Virus record (IMG/VR): IMGVR_UViG_3300046312_000089
Coordinates: 1-41,676 of that record
DNA from: a virus
DNA: 41,676 bases
Reading direction: 5' to 3' (one strand)
The translations under genes were made by a program, and so were the position numbers. The notes beneath the pieces are model-generated. The model was given only the letters and a program-made list of their open reading frames with translations, did no database searches and had not been told where the DNA came from. This document shows, one piece after another, positions 5,271-41,125 of this stretch. Position 1 is the stretch's first letter. Every line of letters begins with the position of its first letter.

Positions 5271-5322
5271 GTGTCGGAAATGGCGCATTTGTGATTGACG
5301 GCACCCACCGCGCTGCGATAGC
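5271..5322 (+). promoter_or_regulatory. Box-class promoter for the 5332/5403 operon
   Basis: The conserved box starts at 5271, the -35 TTGACG is at 5295-5300, and the -10 GATAGC is at 5317-5322 with a 16-bp spacer. An ATG follows 9 bases after the -10, so an mRNA from here would be essentially leaderless. Confidence 0.65.
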
Positions 5323-5331
5323 TTCGCGCCG

Positions 5332-5400
5332 ATGACAACGACATCGAAGCACCCGACAGGTGGCCAGCACGGCCACGAAACCCTTGCCCCCACCCTCTGA
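5332..5400 (+). CDS. Possible 22-residue leader ORF
   Basis: ATG at 5332 opens 22 codons ending in TGA at 5398-5400, two bases before the ATG of the next gene. The position relative to the -10 is the same as that of the real gene start in the second copy of the repeat (41137). The peptide is Thr/His/Gly-rich and unlike any family I know. It may serve as a leader whose termination allows reinitiation at 5403, or it may be a decayed gene start. Confidence 0.35.
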   Translation: MTTTSKHPTGGQHGHETLAPTL

Positions 5401-5402
5401 CC

Positions 5403-5825
5403 ATGTGGCTCTTTACCAAGCACGGCTTTTATTCGGCCACCCGCAGCAACACCGTGAAAGGCTTCATGCAGATCCGCGCACGCTGCCGTGGTGACCTTGA
5501 AAACCTGAAGCGCGAATTCAAGCTGACCGGGGCCATCATTGAAACCCCGCAAGCGGATTACCGCTGGCGGATCGTGTGCCGCCCGACCACGTGGGAAATG
5601 CTGGCCCTGAAGCTGGCTCAAGACGTGGACTATTCGAATTTCAAAAACAGCGTGGGCGACGACCAGCACGACAAGCCGCTGATGGCGGTTTGGTCGCTGA
5701 TGAACCGCTTTCAGGAAGACACCACCCGCAAGGCCGCCAAGGCCAACCAAAAGCTGCCGCTTTTCGACGGTGGCTACGACGACGAAGACGCCCTCGAGAT
5801 CGGGGGCCACAAATTCCAGCGATGA
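5403..5825 (+). CDS. Conserved phage-associated hypothetical protein (MWLFTKxGFYS family)
   Basis: 140 residues. The N-terminus MWLFTKHGFYS, the central DYRWRIV and the later VDYSNFKN and VWSLMNRFQ are the landmarks of a small conserved family found in many bacteria and phages, to my recollection, with no assigned function. No transmembrane segment, signal peptide or metal-binding cluster is seen. It starts two bases after the small leader ORF and its TGA overlaps the next ATG, so it is the first full gene of a short operon between two head genes. Confidence 0.85.
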   Translation: MWLFTKHGFYSATRSNTVKGFMQIRARCRGDLENLKREFKLTGAIIETPQADYRWRIVCRPTTWEMLALKLAQDVDYSNFKNSVGDDQHDKPLMAVWSLMNRFQEDTTRKAAKANQKLPLFDGGYDDEDALEIGGHKFQR

Positions 5826-6178
5826 AAAAGAAAACCAAGCCAGCCATGCAGACCGTTCACAAATTCCGAATCGCCCCGCAGGTGGAAATGCCCGAAGGGG
5901 CCACCATCCTGAAGGTGGGCTTTGACCCGAGCATCCCCGCCGTGTGCTTGTGGGCGCTTTGCGCACCGACCGCCCCGAAGGAAACCCGCTTTTTCGCGAT
6001 GGCGAAGACCGGCGAAGAGCTGGCCCCGGCCATTGACGATTGCCCGCACTTGGAAACGCTGATCGTGACCGTGCCGGGCCCCGACGGCGGCCTGAAGACG
6101 CAAGTCACCCACGTGTGGGAGGTGCCCGCCTACCTCGCCAAGCCGCCCAAAAAGGGCGACGAATGGAAGCACGGCTGA
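5822..6178 (+). CDS. Conserved small phage protein, DUF7352-like
   Basis: 118 residues, start ATG overlapping the previous stop (ATGA). The pattern VEMPEGATILKVG, then LWALC, then ETRFFAMAKTGEE resembles the small DUF7352-type proteins seen in phages and plasmids, in which a short beta-rich fold includes a MPEGA..L motif. Function is unknown. The only inference I can make is co-expression with the preceding protein from the box-class promoter upstream. A hairpin and a weak terminator follow. Confidence 0.8.
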   Translation: MKKKTKPAMQTVHKFRIAPQVEMPEGATILKVGFDPSIPAVCLWALCAPTAPKETRFFAMAKTGEELAPAIDDCPHLETLIVTVPGPDGGLKTQVTHVWEVPAYLAKPPKKGDEWKHG

Positions 6179-6186
6179 ACCCTTTC

Positions 6187-6207
6187 CCCGGGCATGGGAC
6201 GCCCGGG
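6187..6207 (+). other. CCCGGGC hairpin after the 5822 gene
   Basis: CCCGGGC (6187-6193) and GCCCGGG (6201-6207) form a perfect 7-bp stem with a 7-base loop. It is followed by a run of A and not T, so it is not a classic intrinsic terminator. It may stabilise an mRNA end. Confidence 0.4.
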
Positions 6208-6239
6208 AAAAAATGCCCGTAAGGGGGCACAAGCACAGA

Positions 6240-6273
6240 AGCCCCGGGGGAAACTCCGGGGCTGATTGTTTTC
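6240..6273 (+). terminator. Probable weak intrinsic terminator
   Basis: AGCCCCGG (6240-6247) pairs perfectly with CCGGGGCT (6256-6263) over an 8-base loop and is followed by GATTGTTTT. The U-tract is imperfect, so termination may be partial. Confidence 0.5.
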
Positions 6274-6297
6274 CGGCACGTGGGGGCCAAAAATGGC

Positions 6298-6325
6298 TTG
6301 CGGGTGATCCGGTGGGAGCGTAAAC
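6298..6325 (+). promoter_or_regulatory. Candidate promoter for the scaffold gene
   Basis: TTGCGG at 6298-6303 and GTAAAC at 6320-6325 have a 16-bp spacer. The ATG at 6334 is 8 bases after the -10, the same geometry as the box-class promoters but without the box. Confidence 0.4.
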
Positions 6326-6333
6326 CCGGGGGC

Positions 6334-7104
6334 ATGCTGAAATTCATTTACACCTCCGCAGACGAGATTCCCGAGGGAATGGCCGACCACTACACCGAAA
6401 GCAACGGCAAGTTTGTGCTGAACTGCGAAGGTGCGGTCCCCACCAGCCGCCTTGACGAATTCCGGCAAACCAACATCGATTTGAAAAAGAAGGTGGAAGC
6501 CTTCGGCGACCTTGACCCGGTGAAGGTGAAGGAAATCATGGCCAAGGCTGATGAGATTGAAGCAGCCAAGGCGACGACCCCCGAGAAAATCAAGGAAGAG
6601 GTCGACAAGCGCGTGGCGAAAATGAAGGAAGACCACGACCGCGAACTTCAGACGGTGCGCACGAAGCTGACCACCACCGAACAACAGCTTGCCGTGCGAA
6701 CCATTGACGCGGCGCTGATCGAAGCAGGCGGCGAATTCGGCCTGCGCACGACCGCCCACGACGACGCGGTGGCCCGTGGCCGTTCCCTCTTCCGCTTGGA
6801 AGACGGCCAGCCGGTGGCCTACAAGGGCGACGAAAAGCAATACGGCAAAGACGGCAGCCCGCTTTCCCCGCGTGAATTCATCGAAGGCCTGACCAAAGCC
6901 GCGCCGCACCTTTTCGAGCCGAGCGAAGGCGGCGGGGCCGGTGGATCCGGTGGCGCTGGCGGTGGTGGCGGCCGACTTCCCGAGGGCGGCAACCCATGGG
7001 CCAAGGAAACTTTCAACCTCACCAAGCAGGCGCAGATTCTGAAGCAAGACAAGGCCACGGCGCAGCGGATGGCAGCCAAGGCCGGGGTGCCGCTGAAGAT
7101 TTGA
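6334..7104 (+). CDS. Putative capsid scaffolding protein
   Basis: 256 residues. I place the start at ATG 6334 (MLKFIYTSADEIPEG) because scaffold-like proteins often begin with such a sequence followed by an acidic coiled-coil; an upstream GTG at 6280 would add 18 unlikely residues. Residues 50-150 are Lys/Glu-rich and helical (a likely coiled coil). A flexible Gly-rich stretch (GGGAGGSGGAGGGGG) near residue 210 precedes a short positively charged C-terminus, as expected of a scaffold whose tail binds the capsid protein. It lies directly before the major capsid gene, the usual scaffold position. No protease motif is visible. Confidence 0.75.
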   Translation: MLKFIYTSADEIPEGMADHYTESNGKFVLNCEGAVPTSRLDEFRQTNIDLKKKVEAFGDLDPVKVKEIMAKADEIEAAKATTPEKIKEEVDKRVAKMKEDHDRELQTVRTKLTTTEQQLAVRTIDAALIEAGGEFGLRTTAHDDAVARGRSLFRLEDGQPVAYKGDEKQYGKDGSPLSPREFIEGLTKAAPHLFEPSEGGGAGGSGGAGGGGGRLPEGGNPWAKETFNLTKQAQILKQDKATAQRMAAKAGVPLKI

Positions 7105-7112
7105 TTTCCAAC

Positions 7113-7180
7113 CGGAGGGCACGGCGGGCCCGGGGCTCATAACCCACGGGCAGGCGGTTCAAATCCGCCCCCTCCCACCA
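7113..7180 (+). tRNA. tRNA-like element, initiator-type (CAT anticodon), no D-arm
   Basis: The 3' half is canonical: anticodon loop CTCATAA (7136-7142), a 39-43 strand CCCAC, a 5-base variable region, T-arm GGCGG-TTCAAAT-CCGCC (7153-7169), acceptor strand CCCTCCC, discriminator A and an encoded CCA (7178-7180). Upstream, GGAGGG (7114-7119) pairs with CCCTCC (7170-7175), leaving a C1:C72 mismatch. A 1:72 mismatch and GGG:CCC flanking the anticodon loop are initiator tRNA traits. Only 8 bases lie between the acceptor and an extended anticodon stem (GCCC 7128-7131 with GGGC 7148-7151), so there is no D-arm. It could be a deleted tRNA gene, a tRNA mimic, or a host-tRNA-derived attachment core. 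Confidence 0.55.
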
Positions 7181-7234
7181 AGCTACCCATTACCAACAAC
7201 GCGAAAGCGGGCCACGAAGCCCGTGTGAGTTGCA

Positions 7235-7271
7235 GCCCCGCCCGGCACTGATGATCGGGCGGGGCCTTTTT
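7235..7271 (+). terminator. Strong intrinsic terminator upstream of the capsid promoter
   Basis: GCCCCGCCCG (7235-7244) and CGGGCGGGGC (7256-7265) form a perfect 10-bp stem with an 11-base loop, followed by a T5 run. It ends transcription of the scaffold operon and tRNA-like RNA and insulates the capsid promoter. Confidence 0.85.
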
Positions 7272-7272
7272 G

Positions 7273-7288
7273 TGCGAAAATTTTCGCA
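7273..7288. promoter_or_regulatory. Perfect palindromic operator-like site
   Basis: TGCGAAAATTTTCGCA is a perfect 16-bp inverted repeat. It ends 7 bp before the TTGACG of the capsid promoter, a position suited to an activator. Confidence 0.8.
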
Positions 7289-7295
7289 TGGCTGA

Positions 7296-7324
7296 TTGAC
7301 GAAGCCGGGCCCGGGGTGCTAAAC
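7296..7324 (+). promoter_or_regulatory. Late promoter for the capsid operon
   Basis: TTGACG (7296-7301), 17-bp spacer, CTAAAC (7319-7324). The implied 5' UTR is about 95 bases and ends in repeated CAAC units with no Shine-Dalgarno sequence. Confidence 0.6.
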
Positions 7325-7427
7325 ACGGCGCGAAGTCAATCGAGGCGTGCCGGGGGCAGGCCTGAACCGCCCCGGGGGGGCAGTGAGCGACGCCACCAAC
7401 CAACCAACCAACCAATCATCTCTTTTT

Positions 7428-9606: not shown

Positions 9607-9761
9607 AGCCCACCCGCAAAAGCACCCCGCCTTCGAAAGCTGCCGCCCCCGCCTTTGCGCGTGGCGGCAGCCGCCGTTTTCGGGCGTGGCAACTTTCGCA
9701 AGACATGAAGGAACGCCGCGCCAACAACCCGACCATCCCCGAGCCTGAACCCGAGCCATGA
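9603..9761 (+). CDS. Small basic protein (52 residues)
   Basis: A GTG start at 9603 overlaps the preceding TGA (GTGA) and the frame runs to TGA at 9759-9761, which overlaps the next ATG. The product is strongly basic in its first 40 residues (KPTRKS, RGGSRRFRAW, MKERRANN) and ends in a PEPEPEP tail. The coupling on both sides and the smooth fill of a 150-base gap argue that it is real. It may bind nucleic acid or a head protein; function is unknown. Confidence 0.65.
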   Translation: MKPTRKSTPPSKAAAPAFARGGSRRFRAWQLSQDMKERRANNPTIPEPEPEP

Positions 9762-10422: not shown

Positions 10423-10983
10423 ATGGCCCTGACCCTGACACCCGAAACCGGATCCGGCGACAACCCCGCCGCGAACACCTACGCCACCCTCGCCGAAGCC
10501 GACGCCTACCACGAAGGGGTGATCGAATCCAGCGCGTGGGATGACGAAGAGGAACCGGCGAAAACCAAGGCCTTGGCGCAGGCCGCCCGGGTGCTGGAAA
10601 GTCAATTCAGCTGGAAGGGGTGCCGCACCAACCCCGGCCAGCCGATGACGTGGCCGCGCCGCCGCGTGGTGGTTGACGGCACGACCCTTGCCAGCGACGC
10701 CATCCCCACACAGCTGAAGCAGGCGCAAGCCGAGATCGCCCGGGAGCTGCTGGCAGCCGGTGGATTCCAGACGCGCCCGACCAACACCGGGGGAGCTGAC
10801 CAGCTGAAGGCAATCGACCTCGGCAAGGGTGCGCTGAAGCTGGAATACCAAGAGCAAGATCCGAACGCGGCCGCCGACAACGGCCAGAAAACCGTCGTCA
10901 TGCCCTACGTGGTGCAACTGCTTCGGGACTTCGGCGTCTACCAGCAGGGCGGCGACCGCATTGTGCGCACCGTGCGCGGATAA
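10423..10983 (+). CDS. Head-tail connector, DnaT-like family
   Basis: 186 residues. ANTYATLAEADAYHEG near the start, KTKALAQAARVLESQFSWKG, then TWPRRR and LKQAQAEIARELL form the pattern of the phage protein family annotated as DnaT-like, which in phages occupies the head completion or adaptor position. ATG 10423 is chosen (context GCCATGG, five bases after the previous stop); the longer upstream form would read through the end of the preceding gene. It starts the connector series leading to the tail tube. Confidence 0.8.
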   Translation: MALTLTPETGSGDNPAANTYATLAEADAYHEGVIESSAWDDEEEPAKTKALAQAARVLESQFSWKGCRTNPGQPMTWPRRRVVVDGTTLASDAIPTQLKQAQAEIARELLAAGGFQTRPTNTGGADQLKAIDLGKGALKLEYQEQDPNAAADNGQKTVVMPYVVQLLRDFGVYQQGGDRIVRTVRG

Positions 10984-13448: not shown

Positions 13449-13464
13449 TGCGAAAATTTGCGCA
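13449..13464. promoter_or_regulatory. Palindromic operator-like site
   Basis: TGCGAAAATTTGCGCA, one mismatched pair from perfect. It ends 8 bp before the TTGACG at 13473, nearly the same spacing as at the capsid promoter. Confidence 0.75.
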
Positions 13465-13499
13465 CCCCGGGGTTGACGCCTCGGGGTGCCTTTGTAAAC
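13462..13499 (+). promoter_or_regulatory. Overlapping terminator hairpin and late promoter
   Basis: GCACCCCG (13462-13469) pairs with CGGGGTGC (13482-13489), followed by CTTT. The loop contains TTGACG (13473-13478), and GTAAAC lies at 13494-13499 (15-bp spacer, short). The hairpin may stop transcripts from the tube gene while the DNA serves as the promoter for the tail chaperone and tape measure genes. Confidence 0.5.
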
Positions 13500-13535
13500 A
13501 CGACACGCAACCCCAAAACACACCCCAAAACGACC

Positions 13536-27764: not shown

Positions 27765-28506
27765 AAATTTCGTTGCCCGGTGGACTGGGCAAAGCTTCAA
27801 CCCGCTATTTTCCGCGCCCGTGCAAGGGCCATGGATCAGCCCCGAGGGCGTGGCGTGGATTGCCAATTTCGAAGCGGGCGGCCGCGCCTACTACGACCGA
27901 CGCCTGCGCATGCCGACGTGGCCGGGCGGTGCCAGTGGCGTGACCATTGGCATCGGCTACGACGTGGGCTACAACACCGTCGAACAACTGCTTGCCGACT
28001 GGGCCACGCTGATCCCCGCCACCACCTTGGCCCGCCTGCAAAAGGTTTGCGGCATCAAAGGCACGGCAGCCAAAAGCCGGGTGGCGGCGCTGGCAGACAT
28101 CCGCATCCCGTGGGAAGCCGCCCTGAAGGTTTTCCAAACCCGCAGCGTGCCCCGCTTCGGCAAGGAAATGGTGAAGGCCTTCCCCGGTGCCGAGCTGCTG
28201 CCGATTGCCGCGCAAGAGGCGCTGCTTTCGCTGGTCTTCAACCGTGGGGCCAGCCTGAGCGGTGAAAGCCGCCGCGAAATGGCGGAAATTCGCAAGCTGG
28301 TGGGCTACTACCGGGGCAGCAGCGACCGCCCGCGCCTGCTGGGCCTGATTGCCGACGAAGTGGTGAAGATGAAGCGCCTATGGGTGGGCAAGGGCCTTGA
28401 CGGCCTGCTGACACGCCGGGATCAGGAAGCGGCGCGGATCCGCAACGGCTTCAGGATCGACGAAAGCCTTGTGGCGGCCGGTGGCCTCATTCCGATGCTG
28501 GCTTGA
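27748..28506 (+). CDS. Endolysin, lysozyme-like
   Basis: 252 residues. FEAGGRAYYDRRLRMPTWPGG (E42 the likely catalytic Glu) followed by SGVTIGIGYDVGYN is the active-site arrangement of lysozyme-type muramidases related to pesticin and phage T4 lysozyme (GxxxIGIGxxxG). The central region is helical and contains LSLVFNRGASLSGESRREM, matching the later lysozyme helices. There is no clear signal peptide, so export depends on the holin. The start overlaps the preceding gene by 17 bases. A terminator and an operator follow closely. Confidence 0.85.
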   Translation: MLTWIKNFVARWTGQSFNPLFSAPVQGPWISPEGVAWIANFEAGGRAYYDRRLRMPTWPGGASGVTIGIGYDVGYNTVEQLLADWATLIPATTLARLQKVCGIKGTAAKSRVAALADIRIPWEAALKVFQTRSVPRFGKEMVKAFPGAELLPIAAQEALLSLVFNRGASLSGESRREMAEIRKLVGYYRGSSDRPRLLGLIADEVVKMKRLWVGKGLDGLLTRRDQEAARIRNGFRIDESLVAAGGLIPMLA

Positions 28507-28509
28507 CCG

Positions 28510-28525
28510 TGCGCAAATTTTCGCA
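28510..28525. promoter_or_regulatory. Palindromic operator-like site
   Basis: TGCGCAAATTTTCGCA, one mismatched pair. It follows the endolysin stop by 3 bases, overlaps the first base of the terminator stem, and lies about 60 bp upstream of the next -35. Confidence 0.75.
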
Positions 28526-28560
28526 CCCGCCCGGGGGAAACCCTTGGCGGGTTTTTCTTT
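28525..28560 (+). terminator. Terminator of the lysis cassette
   Basis: ACCCGCC (28525-28531) pairs with GGCGGGT (28546-28552) and is followed by TTTTCTTT. A nested AAACCC/GGGTTT hairpin is also possible. Ends the late lysis transcript. Confidence 0.75.
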
Positions 28561-28614
28561 GTGCCGGAAAAGGCGCATTTGTCGCTTGACGGGGCGCGGT
28601 GCGATGGGCCATTT
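28561..28614 (+). promoter_or_regulatory. Box-class promoter for the DNA metabolism operon
   Basis: The conserved box starts at 28561 with a one-base longer spacing (25) to TTGACG (28586-28591). CATTTT (28609-28614, 17-bp spacer) is the best -10. The ATG at 28625 follows after 10 bases, so the mRNA would be leaderless. Confidence 0.6.
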
Positions 28615-28624
28615 TCGGCCCGCT

Positions 28625-29338
28625 ATGCAACACCAACCGATTGAACAAATTCAGGCACTGCCCGACCGGGCCGTGGTTTACTGCTTCGAAGGCACCGTCC
28701 AGAAAGCATTTCGCCGAAGCGACGGCACCAACAGCACCGGGCCGTGGTCGATTGAAACCTTCCTGCTGAAGGAAGACAGCGGCGGCGAAATCAAGCTGAT
28801 GCTGAAAGACGCCGACCCCGCAGGCTGGGCCCCGGGCACGAAGCTGCGCCTCGAGGCGTGGAAGGGCGACAAGGGCTTTTCCGGCCTTTACGCCGCCGAC
28901 GACGAATACAAGGGCGAGGTGCGCCGGATCCTGCGGGCAACGAAGACCTGCAACGTCACGGTGCTGAACGGCCAGCAGCAGGCCGCCCCGCAACAGCAGC
29001 CCCAACACCAGCAGCAGCCAGCGCAAAGCCAGCCAGCGGCGCAAGTGAGCACCCACCAGCAGGGCATGCACAATGCCGACGTGGGCAGCCCGCCACCCAA
29101 GCAGCAGACGAAGGCCGCGCCCGACAGCGTGACCGAAGCCAAGCGCACCATGATGCAGATCGCCAACCTTCACCTGCTTTCCGCGCAAGTGGTGGAATCC
29201 TACGAAGCCCCGGCCTTCAAAAAGGCCACCGGGCAAGACATGACCGAAAGCCAGCGCCAAGGTGCCATTGCCTCGATTTTCATCGAATCGTGCCGCAGCG
29301 GACTGGTGCGGAACATGCCGACGAAAGCCCTCGATTGA
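28625..29338 (+). CDS. OB-like, Gln/Pro-rich protein (single-strand binding candidate)
   Basis: 237 residues. Residues 10-110 form a beta-rich domain with an OB-like strand pattern (VVYCFEGTVQKAFRRS; WSIETFLLKEDSGGEIKLMLKD; GTKLRLEAWKGDKGFSGLYAADD; CNVTVLNG). Residues about 115-160 are a Gln/Pro/Ala-rich linker; the C-terminal 70 residues are helical. It precedes a Rad50-like ATPase, so a single-strand binding or recombination partner role is plausible. The start is ATG 28625, next to the box-class promoter, not an upstream ATG that lies inside the terminator region. Confidence 0.75.
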   Translation: MQHQPIEQIQALPDRAVVYCFEGTVQKAFRRSDGTNSTGPWSIETFLLKEDSGGEIKLMLKDADPAGWAPGTKLRLEAWKGDKGFSGLYAADDEYKGEVRRILRATKTCNVTVLNGQQQAAPQQQPQHQQQPAQSQPAAQVSTHQQGMHNADVGSPPPKQQTKAAPDSVTEAKRTMMQIANLHLLSAQVVESYEAPAFKKATGQDMTESQRQGAIASIFIESCRSGLVRNMPTKALD

Positions 29339-29373
29339 TTCACCCCAACACCCACCCAAGAAACATTTCCAAA

Positions 29374-31509
29374 ATGAAAAACGACACCACCACGACAACC
29401 GCCGCGCCCTTCATTGCAGGCGTGGAATTCACCAACCTGAAGGGATGCAGCGGGCATCATGAGCTTTCCAGCCTTGTGGCCATCGTGGCCCCCAACGGCA
29501 CCGGGAAAACCGCAGTGAAAGACGCCATCCAACTGGCGATTGCGGGCAGCCACCCGGATTTCGGCAAGACCGGCAAGGCGCTGATGGGCTTGGCCAGCGC
29601 CCCAACCCTTGGCGTGGGCATCATGCTTTCCAACCACCAGCGCGTGGCCCGCAGCTGGGCCATGGACGGCAAGGGAAGCGTGAAGGCCACCGCCGACGTG
29701 CCGAGCGACTGGCCCGCCGACGACGTGGCAATGGCTTTCAACCCCACGACGTTCATCAGCCTGAACGATGCCGACCGGGTGGCCACGCTGCTGCGACTTG
29801 GCGGCACCACCACGCCGACGACGGCCGCCGTCGAGGCATTGCGCGACACCCTCGAGGCCAAGGCCACGGGTGCCAGCCGGGTGACCATCACCGAAATGGA
29901 TCCTTTCAGCCCGAAGCTGACCGACCCCGGGACATTCCTCGAGGCCGCCGAAGCCGAGCTGGTGGAAAGCCGCAAGGCGCACAAGCGTGACATCGCCCGG
30001 CTGGAAGCCGCCGTGAAGGGCTTGGAGGATGCCGCACGCGGTGCCGAGGCCCCGGTGAAGGTGGAAGTCACCGAAGTGGAAGCCGCCGCCATGGATGGGC
30101 AGAAACTGGCCGAGGAAGCCTCGCGCATTGCCGAGCGCCACCGCGCCGCCGACCGGCTGCGCCGCCGCGTGGCCGAGATCGGCGACGCCGGGACATGGAC
30201 ACCCGACGACGACGCGGCACTGGTGCGCCTTGGCAACGAAGTGGCCCGCCTTGCGAAAGCCGAAGGCGAGGAAGCCGCCGACAAGGAAGCCTTGCGCCGG
30301 GCCCTTGCCGAAGGCCCCGAGCCCGAGGAAGTGGAAGAGGCCAACGAAGTGCTCGCCACCACCGAAGTGGCAGGCCCGAGCTTGCCGAAGGAAGACGCCG
30401 CAAGCGCCCGGGCGGTGCTGCTGCAAAAGTGCGCCGCCGTGGAAACGATGCTGCCGCGCCTGCGAAAAGACGTTGACGACATCAAGGGCATGATGGGCAT
30501 GGAATGCTGCCCGACGTGCGCGGCCGCTGGCAGCGACCTGAAAGAGCGCCTGAAGGCCACGCTTTCGCCGCAGCTGGAAGTTGCCACCGAAAAGGTGGCC
30601 GAGGCCGAGGCGAGTCTCGACACCATGGGCGCGAAGCTGAAGGAACTGGCCGGGGTGCTGGAAGAGTGGGAAGCCACGGAAAAGCGCCACAAGGCGATTG
30701 CCGACGCCCGCGACGTGATCGCCCGCGACGTGAAGGTGGAAGCCGAAGCCAAGGCCCTACGTGCCCGCATCGATGCCCGCGCCGAAGAGCTGATCGACCC
30801 CGCGACCGGCACCCGCCCCAACCGCGCCGAACATCTGGCGGAATTCACCGCCCTGCAAGAGCGGTTCACCCGCGCCAAGGCCCTGAAAGACCTCGGCGAG
30901 GTGCCGAGCGCCGACGAAGTGGCCGCCCTTGCGAAGCTGGCCGAGGAAACCGCAGCAAGCCGCGACGACCACGCCGCGAAGCTGGCAGGCCTGAAGATGA
31001 CCTTGCAACGCTGGCAGGAATGGGGAGCGCAGGAAGGCCACACCACCCGCATGCGTGAAGAGCTGGAAACCGCCCGCACGAAGCTGAAGGAAGTGGAATC
31101 GCTGGTGACGCTGACCCGCGAAGCCGGGGCCGCCATGGCCGCCGCGATTGCCGAGCCGCTGGCCAAGGGCGTGCGCTACTTCACCGACGGGGTGCTGCCC
31201 GGCCGCGTGGTGGTTGACGCCAAGCTGGCGATTTACCTCGAGACGGCCGACCGTGGCCTGCGGGGATTCCCCGCACTGAGCGGCAGCGAAAAGGCGGTGG
31301 TGGCATTCGCCCTTGCCGCGACGCTGGCCGCGAAGACGCCGCTCCGCATTGCGGTGATCGACGAAGCCAGCACGATGGACGGCACCCGCAAGGTGGCCTT
31401 CCTCGAGCGCGTGGCCATGGCCGTGGCCGACGGCGTGCTTGCGCAAGCCATTGTGATCGACCACGCGGTGCGCGACTTCGGCGACCCTTGGCAGATCCTG
31501 AGCCTCTGA
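29374..31509 (+). CDS. Rad50/SbcC-like ATPase with zinc hook
   Basis: 711 residues. Walker A is APNGTGKT (K45) near the N-terminus, the ABC signature LSGSEKA is near residue 635, and Walker B IAVIDEAS is near 659-666. Long Glu/Ala/Lys coiled coils (about 195-370 and 385-560) flank a CxxC hook (C379-P-T-C382), as in Rad50/SbcC dimers. No SbcD-type nuclease gene is adjacent in this window, which is odd, and the OB-like protein upstream may serve with it instead. Likely role: DNA end processing or recombination during phage replication. ATG 29374 is preferred over a longer frame that overlaps the preceding gene; the leader is CA-rich. Confidence 0.9.
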   Translation: MKNDTTTTTAAPFIAGVEFTNLKGCSGHHELSSLVAIVAPNGTGKTAVKDAIQLAIAGSHPDFGKTGKALMGLASAPTLGVGIMLSNHQRVARSWAMDGKGSVKATADVPSDWPADDVAMAFNPTTFISLNDADRVATLLRLGGTTTPTTAAVEALRDTLEAKATGASRVTITEMDPFSPKLTDPGTFLEAAEAELVESRKAHKRDIARLEAAVKGLEDAARGAEAPVKVEVTEVEAAAMDGQKLAEEASRIAERHRAADRLRRRVAEIGDAGTWTPDDDAALVRLGNEVARLAKAEGEEAADKEALRRALAEGPEPEEVEEANEVLATTEVAGPSLPKEDAASARAVLLQKCAAVETMLPRLRKDVDDIKGMMGMECCPTCAAAGSDLKERLKATLSPQLEVATEKVAEAEASLDTMGAKLKELAGVLEEWEATEKRHKAIADARDVIARDVKVEAEAKALRARIDARAEELIDPATGTRPNRAEHLAEFTALQERFTRAKALKDLGEVPSADEVAALAKLAEETAASRDDHAAKLAGLKMTLQRWQEWGAQEGHTTRMREELETARTKLKEVESLVTLTREAGAAMAAAIAEPLAKGVRYFTDGVLPGRVVVDAKLAIYLETADRGLRGFPALSGSEKAVVAFALAATLAAKTPLRIAVIDEASTMDGTRKVAFLERVAMAVADGVLAQAIVIDHAVRDFGDPWQILSL

Positions 31510-31535: not shown

Positions 31536-31577
31536 CGGGGTGGTTTTCCTTCGGGAATTCCGCCCCGTTTTCTTTTT
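31536..31577 (+). terminator. Intrinsic terminator with UUCG tetraloop
   Basis: The stem runs 31536-31549 and 31554-31567 with loop TTCG, 12 pairs including one G-U and a two-base internal mismatch, followed by TTTTCTTTTT. It lies directly before the box-class promoter of the helicase gene. Confidence 0.85.
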
Positions 31578-31629
31578 GTGCCGGAAAAGGCACATTTAAT
31601 CTTGCGCAGGTAGGTGCTGCCCCTACGCT
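31578..31629 (+). promoter_or_regulatory. Box-class promoter for the UvrD-like helicase operon
   Basis: The conserved box begins at 31578 (here GTGCC-N6-GGCAC is a perfect inverted repeat). TTGCGC is at 31602-31607 and TACGCT at 31624-31629 with a 16-bp spacer. The ATG at 31638 follows after 8 bases. No 16-bp palindrome precedes this one. Confidence 0.6.
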
Positions 31630-31637
31630 TGGCCCCG

Positions 31638-33152
31638 ATGCAACTCACCGATGAACAAATGAGGGTGCGCGACAATGAAGGCCATTTGCTGGTTGTAGGC
31701 GCAAGAGCTGGAAGCGGAAAGACTGCCACCATGGTGGCGCGGATCCGAAAACAAATTGCCGACGGCACCGACCCCGAAGCGATACTGGCCATCACCTTCA
31801 CGGTGGCCGCCGCCCGGGAGCTTCAGCAGCGCCTTGGCGTGGAACTGGGCCATTGCGGCACGCTTCACAGCTACGTGATGCGCCACGCCGCCACCGACGG
31901 GGGCGCGAAGATCGCCGACGACGGCGAGGTGGCCGCACTGGTGGCCGAGGCCTTCGCCAGCCTGAGCGTGCGCGGGGTGACCGCCAAGCAGGTGCTGGCC
32001 GCCATGGAAGACGTGATCGACCCGCCCGGCGACGTGGGCGTGGTGCTGCGATACGTCACCACCGCCCTGCGGGCACGCGGGCAAACCACCTTCAGCCTGA
32101 TGCTGCGGCAGTTTTTGGAGGAAATGAAGATTGGCGTCCACGTGCGCAAATTTGCGCTCTTGGTGGTGGACGAAGCACAAGACACCGCCCCCATCGATGC
32201 CGCGATTTACGACCGGATCGAAGCCACCACCAAGGTTTTCATCGGCGACAGCCTGCAATCGATTTACGGCTTCCGGGGCTGCGACGACCGCTTTTTTCGG
32301 AAGATGGCCCGCCGTGCCAGCGACTTCCTGCCACTTTCCACGACCTTCAGGTGCCGCAAAGCCATCTGCAAGGCCGCCAACCGGCTTTTCCCGATGGCGG
32401 GCACCATGATTTCGGTGCACACCGACGGCGAGGGCTACGTCGAGGCCCTGCGATTCCGCAACGAAGCGGCCGAGCTGAAGGGAATCGAGGCATGGGCCCG
32501 CCAGTGCAACGGCACCCGCGCCGTGCTTTGCCGCTACAACGCCGACGTTGCCCGCGTCGGGGCGTGGCTGCTTGCCAGCGGCATGAAGGTGCGCTTGCGC
32601 CGTGCCGAGCCTGACAAGCTGCTGGTGGCCGCCCTGCGCTACTTGGTGAAGCCCACGCCCGAGCGTGAAGCCGCCGTGCTGGTGGAACTCGGCGAGCGTG
32701 CGCGAAAGGTGGCCGAGCTTTGGAAGAGCCGCGCCGAATTGGAAGCGGGCCGCCCGCTGGCGTGGGTGCTTCAGGAATTCGGAATCCCCGAGCTGACCGC
32801 CTCGGAAGCGGCCCCGCACGGGGTGACCGTTTCCGAGGCGCTGGAAGCCGCCCTGCGGGGTGAAATGCCCGGCGAGGCCGACACCACCGAAGTGGTGGTG
32901 GGAACGATTCACAGCGTGAAGGGGCGCGAATTCGACGACGTGCTGCTGGCCAGCTGCTACGCCCCCGGGAAACGTGCCGACGAAGACGAAGAGGCGCGGA
33001 TTTTCTACGTGGGTATCACCCGGGCGCGAAACACCGCCACCGTGACTTTTGCCGACCGCAGAATCGACACCCGCACCATGGCCGAGCTGGCCGGGGTGCC
33101 GAGCCCGTTCATCAAACTTGCAGGAATCCCGACCACCGAAAGCCACGCATGA
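31638..33152 (+). CDS. UvrD/PcrA-like superfamily 1 helicase
   Basis: 504 residues. The Q-motif region begins MQLTDEQ, then Walker A GARAGSGKT (K28), LAITFTVAAARELQQRL (motif Ia), LLVVDEAQDTAPID (motif II), SLQSIYGFRGCDD (motif III), GTIHSVKGREFDDVLLAS (motif V) and FYVGITRARNTATVTF (motif VI). It lacks the larger insertions of host UvrD and is shorter than RecB-type enzymes. It probably unwinds DNA in phage replication or recombination. ATG 31638 is chosen because it follows the -10 in the shared geometry. A palindromic site lies inside the gene at 32143. Confidence 0.9.
   Translation: MQLTDEQMRVRDNEGHLLVVGARAGSGKTATMVARIRKQIADGTDPEAILAITFTVAAARELQQRLGVELGHCGTLHSYVMRHAATDGGAKIADDGEVAALVAEAFASLSVRGVTAKQVLAAMEDVIDPPGDVGVVLRYVTTALRARGQTTFSLMLRQFLEEMKIGVHVRKFALLVVDEAQDTAPIDAAIYDRIEATTKVFIGDSLQSIYGFRGCDDRFFRKMARRASDFLPLSTTFRCRKAICKAANRLFPMAGTMISVHTDGEGYVEALRFRNEAAELKGIEAWARQCNGTRAVLCRYNADVARVGAWLLASGMKVRLRRAEPDKLLVAALRYLVKPTPEREAAVLVELGERARKVAELWKSRAELEAGRPLAWVLQEFGIPELTASEAAPHGVTVSEALEAALRGEMPGEADTTEVVVGTIHSVKGREFDDVLLASCYAPGKRADEDEEARIFYVGITRARNTATVTFADRRIDTRTMAELAGVPSPFIKLAGIPTTESHA
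32143..32158. promoter_or_regulatory. Palindromic site inside the helicase gene
   Basis: TGCGCAAATTTGCGCT contains a perfect 14-bp inverted repeat (GCGCAAATTTGCGC). It has no visible promoter and may be a stoperator-like or organising site. Confidence 0.5.
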
Positions 33153-35981: not shown

Positions 35982-36152
35982 ATGATACCGATACCCCAAA
36001 AACTGAAACGGTGGGCCATTGCCCACGCCCTGCAAATCACATGGAAGCTTGCCCGCATGGCCTACTTGTGGGCCGAAAACAAGCGCCCGGCCGGTGGCTG
36101 GTTTCCGAAGCCGACAACCAAAAACCAAGTGAACGATGGCCGGAAGAAATAA
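35982..36152 (+). CDS. Small basic protein (56 residues)
   Basis: ATG 35982 immediately follows the operator-like site. The protein is basic (KLKRWAIAHALQITWKLARMAYLWAENKRPAGGWFPKPTTKN) with an amphipathic helix in the middle. It overlaps the next start by 17 bases. No family is recognised. It may be a DNA-binding or membrane-associating accessory. Confidence 0.65.
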   Translation: MIPIPQKLKRWAIAHALQITWKLARMAYLWAENKRPAGGWFPKPTTKNQVNDGRKK

Positions 36153-36621
36153 CGGCACGGCATTCGAGCGCCAACTCGAAACGATTTTTGCCGCCTACCT
36201 GAAGCAGGGCCGGGCGAAGATTGAAAAGGTGGATCCGCCCACCAAGGTGCTGGGCCGCAAGGTGCTTTTCATGCCGAACCCGTGGCTTGATTTCGCGGGC
36301 GTGTGGACTGAGCGCGACGGCCGCACGCTGCTGATCGAAGCGAAGACCACGCAAAAGCCCACCTTGGAGCTTGGCGGCACCCACGGCCTGACAAAGGCGC
36401 AGTGGGGCAATGCCATGGACTGGCAACGGGCCGGGGCCATGGTGCTGCTTTTGTGGGAGCACAAGGGCGAAATCCGGGTGACCACGCCGTCCATGGCCAT
36501 GGCCGATTGCCGGGAGCAAGACCGCAAAAGCCTGCGGTGGTGCGACGCCCACAAGCTGCCGCAGGGCCTCGGATGGGTGACTTTCGACCCCTTAACGTGG
36601 GCCGCACGCTTGACAGCCTGA
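36136..36621 (+). CDS. RecU-like Holliday junction resolvase
   Basis: 161 residues. FERQLETIFAAYLKQGRAKIEKVDPP at the start is typical of RecU, and DFAGVWTERDGRTLLIEAKTT gives the PD-(D/E)xK core: D52, E68 and K70. RecU-type nucleases resolve four-way junctions and end phage recombination intermediates. The length matches phage RecU. The start overlaps the preceding gene; ATG 36136 is used. Confidence 0.8.
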   Translation: MAGRNNGTAFERQLETIFAAYLKQGRAKIEKVDPPTKVLGRKVLFMPNPWLDFAGVWTERDGRTLLIEAKTTQKPTLELGGTHGLTKAQWGNAMDWQRAGAMVLLLWEHKGEIRVTTPSMAMADCREQDRKSLRWCDAHKLPQGLGWVTFDPLTWAARLTA

Positions 36622-36626
36622 AAAGA

Positions 36627-36914
36627 ATGAGCCACAAAAGGCGCATGGACACCAACGAAGTCACCACCCCCAAGGAATTGAGCGACACCCAACTGGCTCC
36701 GCTGGTGGCGTGGGCGCATTCCAATCGGGGGGCCATTGGCCGCATTGCCGAGCGAATGGCGAAGAAAAGCGGCAACGCCGTGAATCGCCACATGGTGGGC
36801 CGCTGGCTGGCCCCCGAGCCCGACAAACGAATCCAGCCGACGCACGGCTACGCCCTCCTCATGGCCGAGGTGGTGGCCGAGCTGCAAGAGGAAGACCGCA
36901 ATCCCGCCCCCTGA
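36627..36914 (+). CDS. Small helix-turn-helix DNA-binding protein
   Basis: 95 residues. LVAWAHSNRGAIGRIAERMAKKSGNAVNRHMVGRWLAPEPDKRIQPTHGYALLMAEVV reads as a Cro/CI-like helix-turn-helix in which residues about 30-60 form the recognition motif. It is the only clear small regulator seen in this window and is therefore the first candidate to bind the palindrome or box families. The start could be ATG 36627 or Met7 at 36645. The TTGACA at 36610 is too close to the start to be its -35. Confidence 0.7.
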   Translation: MSHKRRMDTNEVTTPKELSDTQLAPLVAWAHSNRGAIGRIAERMAKKSGNAVNRHMVGRWLAPEPDKRIQPTHGYALLMAEVVAELQEEDRNPAP

Positions 36915-36951
36915 TTTTCCAGACCCCAACCCCAAAACGACCAAAACACCG

Positions 36952-38127
36952 ATGAAAGACCATCCAATCGCAGGGCTTTTTCCCCTGCTTGCCCCCACCG
37001 AACTCAACGAACTGGCCGAAAGCATTCAGCGCAGCGGCCAGCGCGACGACATCGTGCTTTTTGAAGGCCTGATCCTTGACGGCCGCAACCGCTTCAGGGC
37101 CTGCGAAATTGCGCAGATCAAGCCGCGCACCCGGGTTTTCGACCCGAAGAAAGACGGGCCGAGCCCGCTCCGCTTCGTGCTGGATTTGAACCTGAGCCGC
37201 CGCCACCTGACCACCAGCCAGCGGGCGGCCATCGCCGCCGAAGCCCTGAAGCTGCGGGAAGCCATGGCCAAGCAATCGACGGGCGGCACGGCTTCCACCC
37301 CGGCACCGCTGAAGGCCTACGACCCCGAGGAAGCAGCCGAAGAGGAAGAAACCGGCACCTTGGTGGTGGACGGCACCAAGGCCGAGCCCGAGGCCATCCA
37401 ACAGGCTGCGGATCCCGACGACGACCTGCCCGCCGAAGACAAGCCGACCGTGGCGGAAACCGCGCAAGCCATGGGCGTTTCCAAGCGCAGCGTCGAACAC
37501 GCCAAGAGCCTGACCCCCGCGCACCTCGAGGAAGTGAAGCAGGGCAGCAAGACCTTGCACGCCGCGAAGCAGGAAGAGGCCACCGACAAGCTGAAGGAAC
37601 AACGCAAGGAAGCCATTGCCAAGGTGGCATCGATTTGCGGCAAGGAATTCGCCGACGCGATGGCCCGCAACACCATCCTGAAAACGGTGAAGGAACTGGC
37701 GGCATTCCTCGCGCTTGACCCCGAGCAAATGAAGGCGGTGCAACCGCTGATTTCGACAGGCTGGAAGGTGAAGAAAGCCCTCGCGCACGCCCTGAACAAC
37801 CTGAACGGGGAAAGCAGCATTGCCGACTTGATCAACAAGGCGATTTCCAGCGGTGGCGACGAATTCACCGTGGTGGTCAACGGGTGGGAGATTTCCGCCA
37901 TCAACGTGGGCGCAAGCCACGACAGCGACGGCAAGCCGAGCGGATGGACGCCGGGCGACCCCGCACCGAAGGGCCCGAGCAAGCCCGAAGAGCCCACCGC
38001 CGTGGCCAAGGCCTTGGAGAAAGCAGCCAAAACCAAGGCGAAAGCCAAGGAAAAGGCCGACGCCAAAGCCAAGGCCGCCGAAGCCGCCAAGCAGGCCGCA
38101 GCCGACGCCGAATCCGCAGGCGCATGA
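36952..38127 (+). CDS. ParB-like nuclease-domain protein
   Basis: 391 residues. KDHPIAGLFPLLAPTELNELAESIQRSGQRDDIVLFEGLILDGRNRFRACEIAQ is the ParB N-terminal (ParB/Srx) domain; a helix-turn-helix-like stretch (VAETAQAMGVSKRSVEHAKSL) lies near residue 165. The C-terminal 150 residues are helical, with a Lys/Ala-rich tail. No ParA gene is next to it, so partition is doubtful; phage ParB-like proteins often act in regulation, nuclease activity or DNA binding. It could bind the dispersed palindromes in a parS-like way, which is inference. Start ATG after a CA-rich leader. Confidence 0.85.
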   Translation: MKDHPIAGLFPLLAPTELNELAESIQRSGQRDDIVLFEGLILDGRNRFRACEIAQIKPRTRVFDPKKDGPSPLRFVLDLNLSRRHLTTSQRAAIAAEALKLREAMAKQSTGGTASTPAPLKAYDPEEAAEEEETGTLVVDGTKAEPEAIQQAADPDDDLPAEDKPTVAETAQAMGVSKRSVEHAKSLTPAHLEEVKQGSKTLHAAKQEEATDKLKEQRKEAIAKVASICGKEFADAMARNTILKTVKELAAFLALDPEQMKAVQPLISTGWKVKKALAHALNNLNGESSIADLINKAISSGGDEFTVVVNGWEISAINVGASHDSDGKPSGWTPGDPAPKGPSKPEEPTAVAKALEKAAKTKAKAKEKADAKAKAAEAAKQAAADAESAGA

Positions 38128-38269
38128 TTTCTCGCCGCCCGGGTTTCGCGACAAAAACGCGACACGCCCGGGAAAGAAAAACCGCCCCCCACGCAAGTGG
38201 AGCCGCCGAAGCGTGAAGGCCGGGGCCGCATTCTCCTGACAGAAACCACCAACCAACAGCACCAACACC
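38128..38269 (+). other. Gap with hairpin and CA-rich leader
   Basis: CCCGGG arms (38138-38143, 38167-38172) with an inner TCGCG/CGCGA stem form a hairpin followed by AAAGAAAAA, not T, so it is not a clear terminator. The gap ends in ACCACCAACCAACAGC before the ATG. No coding capacity was seen. Confidence 0.5.
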
Positions 38270-38539
38270 ATGCCGAAAGCCACCACTGCCACCGTTCGCC
38301 GCCGCAAAGTAATTTGCCGGGCAACCACCGTCAACGCGCCGACAAAAAGCGCAAAATGGGATGCCCTGATGAGACTGAGCACGCCCGAGCTGAAAAACCT
38401 CCTACGGGCCGCCAAGATCGGGATCCCGAAAGAAAAGCACATGATGGCCGAGCGCCTTTCCGAGCATGAATCCGTGGCCGTGGCAGTGACCACCGAAGCG
38501 GTGGTCTTTGGTGCGCCGGGCAAGCCCGTCCCCTGCTGA
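38270..38539 (+). CDS. SAP-like DNA-binding protein
   Basis: 89 residues. LSTPELKNLLRAAKIGIPKEKHMMAERLSEHE matches the two-helix SAP pattern (L...eLk.lL...gi..K..mveRL). Basic N-terminus (KATTATVRRRKVICRATTVN). Such small proteins bind scaffold or A/T-rich DNA. It starts after a CA-rich leader (ACCAACCAACAGCACCAACACC). Confidence 0.6.
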   Translation: MPKATTATVRRRKVICRATTVNAPTKSAKWDALMRLSTPELKNLLRAAKIGIPKEKHMMAERLSEHESVAVAVTTEAVVFGAPGKPVPC

Positions 38540-38552
38540 TTTCCAAGCGCGG

Positions 38553-38618
38553 CCATTCCGGGGGGGATGGCTGCCGGGAATGGTGGCCGGGTGGGAAACT
38601 GCCCGGCCACTACTTTTT
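38553..38618 (+). terminator. Double hairpin terminator
   Basis: The upstream hairpin CCATTCC/GGAATGG (38553-38583) overlaps the second by one base. The second is a perfect 9-bp stem GTGGCCGGG (38583-38591) and CCCGGCCAC (38602-38610), followed by TACTTTTT. It ends the ParB/SAP transcript before the helicase gene. Confidence 0.8.
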
Positions 38619-38646
38619 CACCCCCCAACCTGATGACAAAACACCG

Positions 38647-40290
38647 ATGAAATTTACCCTCCGAGACTACCAGCAGCAATTTTGCCGTGCCGTGGTGAAC
38701 GCCTTCACCATCGGGGCCGAAGGCCAAGGCCCATTTGAAAGGGTGCTTGGCGTGGCCGCCACCGGGGCAGGCAAAACCATCATGGCCGCCGCACTGGTTT
38801 GGTGGATCACGCGCAAGCCGCGCCGCACCGGCCGCGTGCTGATGCTGGCCGACACCGACGAGCTGGTGCAACAGGCCGCCGACAAGATCCTGCAAGCCAC
38901 GGGCCTGATTCCCGACATCGAAAAGGCCGCCAGCATGGCCAGTCTCGACAGCGCCGTGGTGGTGGGATCGATTCAGACCCTGAGCCGACGCCTCGAGCGG
39001 TGGCCAGCCGACCAATTCGACTTGGTGATTGCCGACGAAGCGCACCTGAGCATGGCCAACAACTGGCAAAGGGTGCTGAAGCACTTCGGCGACGGCGGGG
39101 CATGGATCCTCGGCATAACGGCGACCCCCGAGCGGGGCGACGGCCAAAAGCTGATGCGCTACTATGAGCACATCGCCGCCGAAATTGGCCTTTTCGATTT
39201 GATAAACCGGGGGCACTTGGCACCCATCACCGTGCAAGTTTGCCCGCTGCAAATCGATTGCACCGGTCTGGTGGCAGCCAAAAAGGGGCTGAACAAAGGC
39301 GAATTCGACGGCGACCAGCTGGAAGAGGCAATCGAGCCATACCTTGCGGCCATCATTGACGAGTGGCAGCAGCACGCGGGCGACCGCCGCACGTTGGTCT
39401 TTCACCCGAGCGTGAAGGCCAGCCAGAAATTCACGGAAATGCTGCAAGCTCGTGGGATCGCGGCCGCGCACGTTTCCGGGGCCAGCAAAGACCGCAAAGA
39501 AGTGCTGAAGGGCTTCGAAAGCGGGCGCTTTCAGGTGCTGAACAACGCACAGCTTTTGACGAAGGGCTACGACTGCCCGGCGATTGCCTGCATCATCAAC
39601 CTGCGGCCGACGAAGAGCCGCACGCAATACCTGCAAATGGTGGGCCGGGGCACCCGCACGTGCGAGGGGAAAACCGATTGCCTGCTGCTGGATTTCCTCT
39701 GGCAATTCCAAGAGCTGGGCATCATGCGCCCGGCCGCCCTGATGGGCAAAAGCGACGAACACGAAGAGGCCGTGGCCAAGGTCATGGAACGCGGCAAGCG
39801 CCTGACCCTCGGCGAGGCCAGCGAAGAGGCCGAGCGGGAACGGGAACAACAGATCATCCGCCAGCTGAAGCGGGCGGCCGAGCGCGGGGGCCGCCAGACC
39901 TACGACGCCCGGGTGCTGGGTGCCATGCTTCACCAGCCGGATTTGATCGACTACGAACCACGGGCGAAGTGGGAGAAACTGCCGCCGACCCGAGGGCAGC
40001 AGCGGTTTTTGGAAACGCAAGGGATCGACCCCAAGAGCGTGAAGGGGCTGGGCCACGCCGCGAAGATTATGCACGCGCTGGCCGACCGCAGAAACCACGG
40101 CATGGCCACCACCAAGCAGGTGGCGGCGCTGGCCGTGGCCGAGGTGCCAAACGCCCACCAGCTGACCTTCAGCGACGCCCTGAGCTGGCTCGAGCGGGCG
40201 ATTGCCGAAGCGCCCGAAGAGGGCATGGAAGCACCGGCCAAGGCCTACGCCGGGCCAGCCGTTTCACGTGGCATGCGCCTTGACGATTAA
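38647..40290 (+). CDS. Superfamily 2 DEAD/DEAH helicase
   Basis: 547 residues. The Q-type start LRDYQQQFCRAVVNAF, Walker A AATGAGKT (K43), DEAH (D130-H133), GITATPER (motif III) and YLQMVGRGTRTCEGK (motif VI) are all present. The C-terminal part (KLPPTRGQQRFLETQGIDPKSVKGL) resembles DNA-binding extensions of phage SF2 helicases such as RadD-like enzymes. It probably unwinds or remodels DNA in recombination-dependent replication. The gene starts after a CCCCCCAACC leader and its TAA precedes the next gene by a few bases. Confidence 0.9.
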   Translation: MKFTLRDYQQQFCRAVVNAFTIGAEGQGPFERVLGVAATGAGKTIMAAALVWWITRKPRRTGRVLMLADTDELVQQAADKILQATGLIPDIEKAASMASLDSAVVVGSIQTLSRRLERWPADQFDLVIADEAHLSMANNWQRVLKHFGDGGAWILGITATPERGDGQKLMRYYEHIAAEIGLFDLINRGHLAPITVQVCPLQIDCTGLVAAKKGLNKGEFDGDQLEEAIEPYLAAIIDEWQQHAGDRRTLVFHPSVKASQKFTEMLQARGIAAAHVSGASKDRKEVLKGFESGRFQVLNNAQLLTKGYDCPAIACIINLRPTKSRTQYLQMVGRGTRTCEGKTDCLLLDFLWQFQELGIMRPAALMGKSDEHEEAVAKVMERGKRLTLGEASEEAEREREQQIIRQLKRAAERGGRQTYDARVLGAMLHQPDLIDYEPRAKWEKLPPTRGQQRFLETQGIDPKSVKGLGHAAKIMHALADRRNHGMATTKQVAALAVAEVPNAHQLTFSDALSWLERAIAEAPEEGMEAPAKAYAGPAVSRGMRLDD

Positions 40291-40294
40291 AACC

Positions 40295-40522
40295 ATGATG
40301 ACACCCGACGACACCCACGAAGACGGCACCCCGATTTTCGACGCCGACAGCTTCGGCAGCGCCTTGGAATTCACCCACCACATGACCGTGGCCAGCGTGC
40401 CCGTGCCCTGCTGGCTTCGGATCGGCCGCACCTGCATGAAGGTGACCGAAGACACCCTGAAGCCGATCACCCGCGGCGTGCTGCTTGCCGAGCTGATGCG
40501 CGAACACCTGAGCGGGGCATGA
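40295..40522 (+). CDS. Small unknown protein (75 residues)
   Basis: ATG at 40295, with a second in-frame ATG at 40298. The protein is acidic at first and then hydrophobic/beta (FTHHMTVASVPVPCWLRIGRTCMKVTEDTLKPITRGVLLAELMREHLSG). It overlaps the next start by four bases. No family is recognised; it belongs to a three-gene run of small proteins downstream of the helicase. Confidence 0.6.
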   Translation: MMTPDDTHEDGTPIFDADSFGSALEFTHHMTVASVPVPCWLRIGRTCMKVTEDTLKPITRGVLLAELMREHLSGA

Positions 40523-40743
40523 ACGCCGAAGACCTCGAGCACTGGCAACCGATGCCATGGGATCGCCCCGGGCCCTTCAGCGTGGAAATTTGGGAGATTC
40601 CGGGGCACTGGGATGCGATAGACACCACGCCCGATTTCCTCGAGGCCGCCCGCCTTGCCAGCCGGGTGGTGCGCCGCGACTGGCGGGTGCACCGGCACGA
40701 AGAGCGGGTGCAAATTCTCGACGCCCACGGCCGCCCGTGCTGA
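40519..40743 (+). CDS. Small unknown protein (74 residues)
   Basis: Start overlapping the preceding stop. Trp-rich and mixed-charge (EHWQPMPWDRPGPFSVEIWEIPGHWDAIDTTPDFLEAARLASRVVRRDWRVHRHEERVQILD); the second half could be a short helix followed by a strand. No domain recognised. Co-transcribed with its neighbours. Confidence 0.65.
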   Translation: MNAEDLEHWQPMPWDRPGPFSVEIWEIPGHWDAIDTTPDFLEAARLASRVVRRDWRVHRHEERVQILDAHGRPC

Positions 40744-40753
40744 AGTGCGTGGC

Positions 40754-41044
40754 ATGAACCACGACAGCGTGCCACTGGTGATTTTCGAGAATGGGAACGC
40801 TGCGGCCGCACACGGGCCGGGCGGTGCCTGCTGGGCCGACGACGAAAGCCACCTTTACGTGGTGATCCCCGGGCACAAGTGCCTTGACGCCATCGCCGTG
40901 ACCCGGGATCAGGCCGAGGCACAGCGCACGCCGCGCACGTGGCTGCTGACCGGCACCCGGGAGTGCCCGACCCTGCATCCTTCCTTGCACGTGCCCGGCC
41001 AGTGGCATGGATGGCTGCGGGAAGGCCAGCTGGTTTCCTGCTGA
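40754..41044 (+). CDS. Small conserved phage protein, DUF6527-like
   Basis: 96 residues. RECPTLHPSLHVPGQWHGWLREGQLVSC matches a conserved ending of small phage proteins of the DUF6527 type (TLxPSI...WHGWLxxGxLVSC); a His/Cys pair there might bind metal. The first part (SVPLVIFENGNAAAAHGPGGACWADDESHLYVVIPGHKCLDAIAVTRDQAEAQRT) is unassigned. Start at ATG 40754. It ends just before an operator-promoter block. Confidence 0.65.
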   Translation: MNHDSVPLVIFENGNAAAAHGPGGACWADDESHLYVVIPGHKCLDAIAVTRDQAEAQRTPRTWLLTGTRECPTLHPSLHVPGQWHGWLREGQLVSC

Positions 41045-41045
41045 T

Positions 41046-41061
41046 TGCGCAAATTTACGCA
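41046..41061. promoter_or_regulatory. Palindromic operator-like site
   Basis: TGCGCAAATTTACGCA, one mismatched pair. It lies 36 bp upstream of the -35, the same as in copy A. Confidence 0.75.
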
Positions 41062-41073
41062 TGGCAAAGAAAA

Positions 41074-41125
41074 GTGTCGGAAAAGGCGCATTTGTGATTG
41101 ACGGCACTCACCGCGCTGCGATAGC
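41074..41125 (+). promoter_or_regulatory. Box-class promoter for the 41137 gene
   Basis: Box from 41074, -35 TTGACG at 41098-41103, -10 GATAGC at 41120-41125 (16-bp spacer). The ATG at 41137 is 11 bases further, implying a leaderless mRNA. Confidence 0.65.

Follow-up and report, generated by a model that had tools for sequence, protein, structure and literature searches.

A phage promoter class specific to one lineage, with an operator of its own and probable leaderless starts

A 16-bp dyad, GYGYC-N6-GGCRC, composed of two GYGYC half-sites 11 bp apart and referred to here as box 2, marks a set of phage promoters in which the dyad is held at a fixed distance from the -35 hexamer and the start codon lies just behind the -10 element. 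Sequence comparison gives good support to a phage promoter class that is specific to its lineage and whose starts are probably leaderless; the kinds of element behind it, a phage operator set and leaderless promoters, are known. The window, that is, the whole stretch of DNA analysed, is an IMG/VR phage record of 41,676 bp with a GC content of ~64% and conserved genes on the + strand. Its head-tail module is of the SPP1-like kind, with a major capsid protein 42–47% identical to those of phages of Gram-positive and other bacteria, and its replication module encodes a UvrD helicase, an O/DnaD-like initiator, a DnaC/IstB-like loader, a Holliday junction resolvase and a DEAD-type helicase. A scan of window proteins revealed no terminase or portal gene, and the record begins where the portal gene of a relative ends, indicating that the window is an incomplete genome. 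This relative, IMGVR_UViG_3300017766_003746 (G001; 59,307 bp), is collinear with the window at ~77% nucleotide identity, and a second relative carrying box 2 is represented by one contig (L089/L158). No close relative of the window was found in the phage collection by nucleotide similarity, or among viral contigs by comparison of the UvrD protein. The part of G001 that is missing from the window encodes a pair of DNA methyltransferases (L073:133-1563 and L073:2098-3438), one of which carries a fused ParB N-terminal domain. A strong AT skew, with A exceeding T on the coding strand by up to ~0.36, is seen at window positions 1-6000, 28000-31000 and 36000-40000.

The four boxes listed in an earlier note on this DNA, at 5271, 28561, 31578 and 41074, are real: all lie on the + strand with 0–1 mismatch to the pattern proposed there, 0.02 matches are expected by chance, and four were never reached in shuffled sequences. 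With a weight matrix built from box 2 sites, the sites score 22.6–26.5, compared to maxima of 15–20 in shuffled sequence. Three orthologous promoters (28561, 31578 and 41074) retain the box in G001 (g42900, g45985 and g55107) with 15/16, 15/16 and 13/16 identical positions, respectively, while the 40 bp preceding the box in the 28561 pair are only 11/40 identical. At the place in G001 orthologous to 5271 (g18625), the promoter has been rebuilt and the box sits between the -35 and the -10. G001 has an additional box at g6424, where a clear leaderless ORF is absent, and the second relative has one at L089:3444 with the same core promoter, before an unrelated 92-aa ORF. Two sites, g1988 and L089:7985, fall outside the common register; the former (G001 1988-2003) is a perfect dyad, GCGCCGGAAAAGGCGC, the same as the g6424 box, with no promoter in register. 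In other phage contigs box 2 was absent except for one match, rejected as chance or unrelated, and two helicase relatives (62–64%) were without boxes. The strict box 2-promoter pattern was absent from 388 genomes of a candidate PVC-group phylum, and in the majority of five Shine-Dalgarno (SD)-poor genomes a looser dyad was about as frequent as in controls.

The -35 hexamers begin 24–25 bp downstream of the box starts, as reported in the earlier note. Across about eight promoters, tallied by site as four in the window, four in G001 and one in L089, the same dyad is centred 15.5–17.5 bp from the first base of the -35, placing its centre at about -52 and in one helical phase relative to the -35. 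The distance from box start to start codon is 60–64 nt at about seven promoters heading an ORF, and the genes behind them, namely the helicase, a 22-codon ORF and several unrelated small proteins, include several that are non-homologous, indicating that the start-codon geometry belongs to the promoter. The -10 elements are [TC]AnnnT-like (TATTGA at g55107) and end 7–10 nt before the ATG, so that transcription starting 6–8 nt past the -10 would leave a predicted leader of 0–4 nt. The closeness of -10 and ATG thus stands, with the spacing of 8–11 nt given previously corrected to 7, 9, 8 and 9 nt; at the 41074 promoter a GTG (41134) directly precedes the ATG (41137). Strong promoters 5–10 nt before starts are over-represented compared to other distances (5/40 starts in the window, 7/42 in G001). 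The geometry, kept in a relative of ~77% nucleotide identity, places the predicted transcription start at the start codon or a few nucleotides from it. Coordinates of the features are collected in Table 1.

Table 1. Positions of promoter elements, operators and associated genes in the window
Feature	Position	Strand	Basis or context
Box 1 palindrome TGCGTAAATTTTCGCA	5243-5258		28 bp upstream of box 2 (start-to-start)
Box 2 copy	5271-5290; dyad 5271-5286, GTGTCGGAAATGGCGC	+	Pattern match, register
Core promoter TTGACG-N18-TAGCTT	5295-5324 (-10, 5319-5324)	+	ATG 5332, 7 nt downstream
22-codon ORF at predicted transcription start	5332-5400	+	Stop just before ATG 5403
Scaffold promoter TTGCGG-N17-TAAACC	6298-6334	+	ATG 6334, 7 nt downstream; -35 immediately preceded by decayed box
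Contrast promoter, box 1 at about -51, no box 2	7273-7325	+	TTGACG 7296; long leader to major capsid gene, ATG 7428
Contrast promoter, box 1 at -52	13449-13500	+	TTGACG 13473; A/C-rich leader to tail-region gene, ATG 13536
Box 1 copy	28510-28525		Upstream of 28561 promoter; terminator-like hairpin between box 1 and box 2
Terminator-like hairpin and T tract	28531-28560	+	Ends directly at box; terminator scan and sequence
Box 2 copy	28561-28580; dyad 28561-28576, GTGCCGGAAAAGGCGC	+	Pattern match; ortholog g42900
Core promoter TTGACG-N18-CATTTT	28586-28615 (-10, 28610-28615)	+	ATG 28625, 9 nt downstream; conserved in G001
237-aa protein, no assigned function	28625-29338	+	First gene of unit; SMC/AAA-type ATPase follows
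Box 2 copy, perfect dyad	31578-31597; dyad 31578-31593, GTGCCGGAAAAGGCAC	+	Ortholog g45985
Core promoter TTGCGC-N16-TACGCT	31602-31629 (-10, 31624-31629)	+	ATG 31638, 8 nt downstream
UvrD/Rep-family helicase	31638-33152	+	First gene; then O/DnaD-like initiator, DnaC/IstB-like ATPase
Candidate regulator gene (weak), ATG 36645; four-helix model	36610-36914	+	Own boxless leaderless-type promoter TTGACA-N17-CACAAA-N6-ATG
Box 1 copy	41046-41061		Starts 28 bp upstream of 41074 box
Box 2 copy	41074-41093; dyad 41074-41089, GTGTCGGAAAAGGCGC	+	Ortholog g55107
Core promoter TTGACG-N18-TAGCTT	41098-41127 (-10, 41122-41127)	+	GTG 41134 and ATG 41137, 6 and 9 nt downstream
169-aa protein, no assigned function (phrog_19789)	41137-41646	+	

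The proposal of a dedicated promoter class holds in that the class is real and has its own operator; its exclusive link to leaderless starts and its link to replication were overstated. Only two of the four window promoters, 28561 and 31578, head replication or recombination-type units, the 5271 promoter being located in the head module and the 41074 promoter before a gene without assigned function. Candidate leaderless-type promoters without box 2 are present both in this phage and in related ones, at 36645 and 11801 (both conserved in G001), at L089:2440 (with box 1 instead) and at L160:2228, although 36645 and 11801 overlap the coding sequence of the preceding gene, which may explain part of their conservation. 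Nor is the scaffold promoter clearly boxless, as had been stated: its G001 ortholog (g19729) has a box-like GTGCCGAAAATGGC abutting TTGCCG, with a score of 15.6 that is within the shuffle range, and the window copy carries a decayed version, GGGCCAAAAATGGC. There is no SD signal anywhere in the window (1-41676), and the starts pair less strongly with the anti-SD (dG -2.83) than ATGs in general do (-4.20; P = 6e-4; in G001, P = 3e-6). Given the boxless cases and this genome-wide absence of SD sites, the leaderless start was rejected as a property of the box. Window regions upstream of starts are C/A-rich and often end in ACC-ATG.

A similar C-rich upstream context is found in SD-poor genomes of one PVC-group phylum, where TAnnnT lies 5–10 nt before the ATG 35 times compared to 14.9 expected (P = 6e-6; five genomes, the signal coming mainly from two), while SD-using members of that phylum have 2 such motifs against 5.2 expected. 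From these start contexts, leaderless initiation looks like a habit of the host lineage and not the doing of the box, and the host is probably a member of the Verrucomicrobia, some of which have already been listed as SD-scarce organisms (PMC10783764). The contig with the best bacterial match in a comparison of prophage capsids (50% identity; PXDI01000066.1, 'PVC group bacterium') was rejected as host evidence, since its 35% GC and strong SD sites indicate that it is probably mis-binned; the phylum was reached through this contig and is informative via start contexts only.

Taken together, we consider it reasonably likely that a phage-encoded dimeric protein controls the box 2 promoter set, by activation more probably than by repression, and that leaderless initiation follows the habit of the host. 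Box 2 would be the operator for this protein at sigma-70-type promoters, a dimer being suggested by half-sites one helical turn apart and a phage origin by the absence of the box from candidate hosts and other phages. Bound at about -52, the protein would most likely act as an activator touching RNA polymerase, as suggested by the location of the site, the preserved helical phase and the non-consensus -10s. Four units would thereby be turned on jointly: the one at 28625, the one with the UvrD helicase, initiator and loader, the one at 41137, and the 5332 peptide/head-module unit. Initiation 0–4 nt before the start codon would yield leaderless mRNAs, and ribosomes would load on their 5′-terminal AUG, presumably the default in an SD-poor, probably verrucomicrobial host. 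A weak candidate for the regulator is the protein encoded at 36645-36914, which is 91% identical in G001, the only other member of its family found, and has a weak 'transcriptional regulator' family match. A fold search with its model (mean pLDDT 79) gave no significant match, the top ones including the HTH protein Aca1 at E ~2.

The main rival is that box 2 binds a phage repressor, shutting early promoters later or acting in a lysogeny-type circuit, which we regard as unlikely, if the least unlikely of the alternatives. It draws on the good -35 hexamers, which suggest activity without help and that an activator is perhaps unneeded, and on the g18625 box, located inside the core promoter. A degenerate box-like sequence also overlaps the -10 on the minus strand at 28606, and another overlaps the start at 36645, both at scores no better than chance. 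Against this, the roughly eight clear sites are centred outside the core promoter, where simple repression is uncommon, and scanning of proteins from the window and G001 revealed no integrase.

That the start codons are mis-assigned, and the mRNAs are ordinary leadered ones with downstream starts, appears improbable. Alternative in-frame starts do exist at 31659 and 41152, and the ATG at 5332 opens only 22 codons before the next conserved gene begins at 5403. This reading does not fit well with an ATG or GTG at a constant distance from the box in front of non-homologous genes, or with the 16 nt that immediately precede the ATG being 16/16 (31578 pair) and 14/16 identical in two window/G001 orthologous pairs. 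Over the first 60 nt of the gene, identity in the 31578 pair is 49/60, although the point is weakened in that the 16-nt stretch can also be read as in-frame coding sequence from an upstream GTG.

It is still less probable that the box acts as an RNA hairpin, GUGCC-GGAAAA-GGCAC, terminating or processing the upstream transcript. Variation in the arms is compatible with pairing, and the 31578 copy folds better than 200/200 shuffles and was called terminator-like, but the remaining three copies fold unremarkably (z = -0.45, -1.02 and -1.06), a U tract is missing after most copies, and the position of the box is fixed to the promoter and not to the upstream gene. Two copies are already preceded by a separate terminator-like hairpin, in a scan in which terminator-like sites were no commoner than in shuffles; with one of the two window copies scanned qualifying, a terminator function was rejected except possibly at 31578. 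Equally improbable is an UP-element-like or host-factor site read by host polymerase or a host regulator: the box is located where alpha-CTD and host class I activators bind, and the sequence between box and -35 is AT-rich, but the conserved G/C-rich arms are not UP-like and the strict pattern is absent from the 388 genomes surveyed above, with the looser dyad near control level in most of the five.

A second operator, box 1, is the palindrome TGCGNAAATTTNCGCA, with nine window sites at ≤1 mismatch (2910, 5243, 7273, 13449, 21668, 28510, 32143, 35966 and 41046) compared to 0.01 expected, and 15 sites in G001. Its placement is mixed, at promoters in the -52 register, after stop codons and inside genes, with many sites lacking a promoter. 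It lies 15.5–16.5 bp from the -35 at L089:2440 and, in both phages, at the promoters for capsid and tail-region genes. Five box 2 promoters carry a box 1 copy that begins exactly 28 bp upstream of the box 2 start. As read from the sequence, the leaders behind the capsid and tail promoters are tens of nucleotides long or longer. These arrangements suggest two operator classes sharing one register. Four further contigs with apparent box 1 promoters were rejected as chance or unrelated. A 391-aa protein (36952-38127) has an N-terminus of ParB type by eye, a sub-threshold HTH match and no significant Pfam match, and may be a box 1 binder.

In class I activation of the CRP type, a pair of half-sites spaced 11 bp and flanking N6 lies upstream of an intact -35. 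Box 2 has the same half-site layout, whereas its half-site sequence and its centre (-52 as opposed to -61.5) differ, and no CRP-family protein was found among the proteins scanned. The Ogr-delta late promoters of P2 and P4 likewise share a dyad, TGT-N12-ACA, at several operons under one small phage activator (PMC3931495). The sequence at 31577-31594 fits this consensus, but all six letters are present in only 1 of 11 boxes (3–5 in the rest), the P2 promoters feed late genes, unlike the window set, and no Ogr-like CX2CX22CX4C finger was found as CX2C-X18-26-CX4C in the + frames of the window (an incomplete genome), G001 or L158. Leaderless genes of Deinococcus-Thermus have a -10 (TANNNT) a few bp before the ORF (PMC12340547), a feature shared here, where it is accompanied by an evident -35 and an operator specific to the set, in a phage and in another lineage. 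The naturally leaderless cI mRNA of phage lambda (PMC4965119) is a single gene in an SD-using host, as opposed to several units under one operator in an SD-free phage.

The closest parallel is found in the cultured Verrucomicrobia phage P8625 (NC_029047; host Puniceicoccales sp. IMCC8625; PMC4642752). It too lacks an SD signal, and at least three of its genes have TTGACA-N17-TATnnG-N7-ATG together with a shared palindromic repeat, GTATCN..TTATTGGATAC, which covers the -10 in promoters of leaderless type (5426-5456, 9634-9664, 10750-10780 and near 15594). Unlike box 2, this palindrome (GTATCC..GGATAC) overlaps the -10 and is not at -52, and its sequence is unrelated. The repeat-plus-leaderless set is not described in the P8625 paper (PMC4642752). 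In the open-access literature we found no publication on the box 2 operator or on leaderless sets in verrucomicrobial phages, and no published start-site maps for verrucomicrobial phages or their hosts.

It is possible, though we hold it only tentatively, that phages of SD-poor Verrucomicrobia direct their infection programme by phage-specific transcription factors placed on leaderless promoter sets, here with two operators, box 1 and box 2, in one register near -52 dividing the genome into a mostly leadered structural class and a leaderless one to which replication genes belong. In such genomes, gene callers that depend on SD sites will put starts in the wrong place; the annotated TTG start of P8625 at 9620 is a likely example, being probably wrong, with an ATG near 9656. 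If the proposed reading is true, these promoters would be a concrete instance, in a phage, of leaderless translation coupled to the control of a gene set, and would supply a sequence signature by which transcription starts could be located in verrucomicrobial phages and their hosts.
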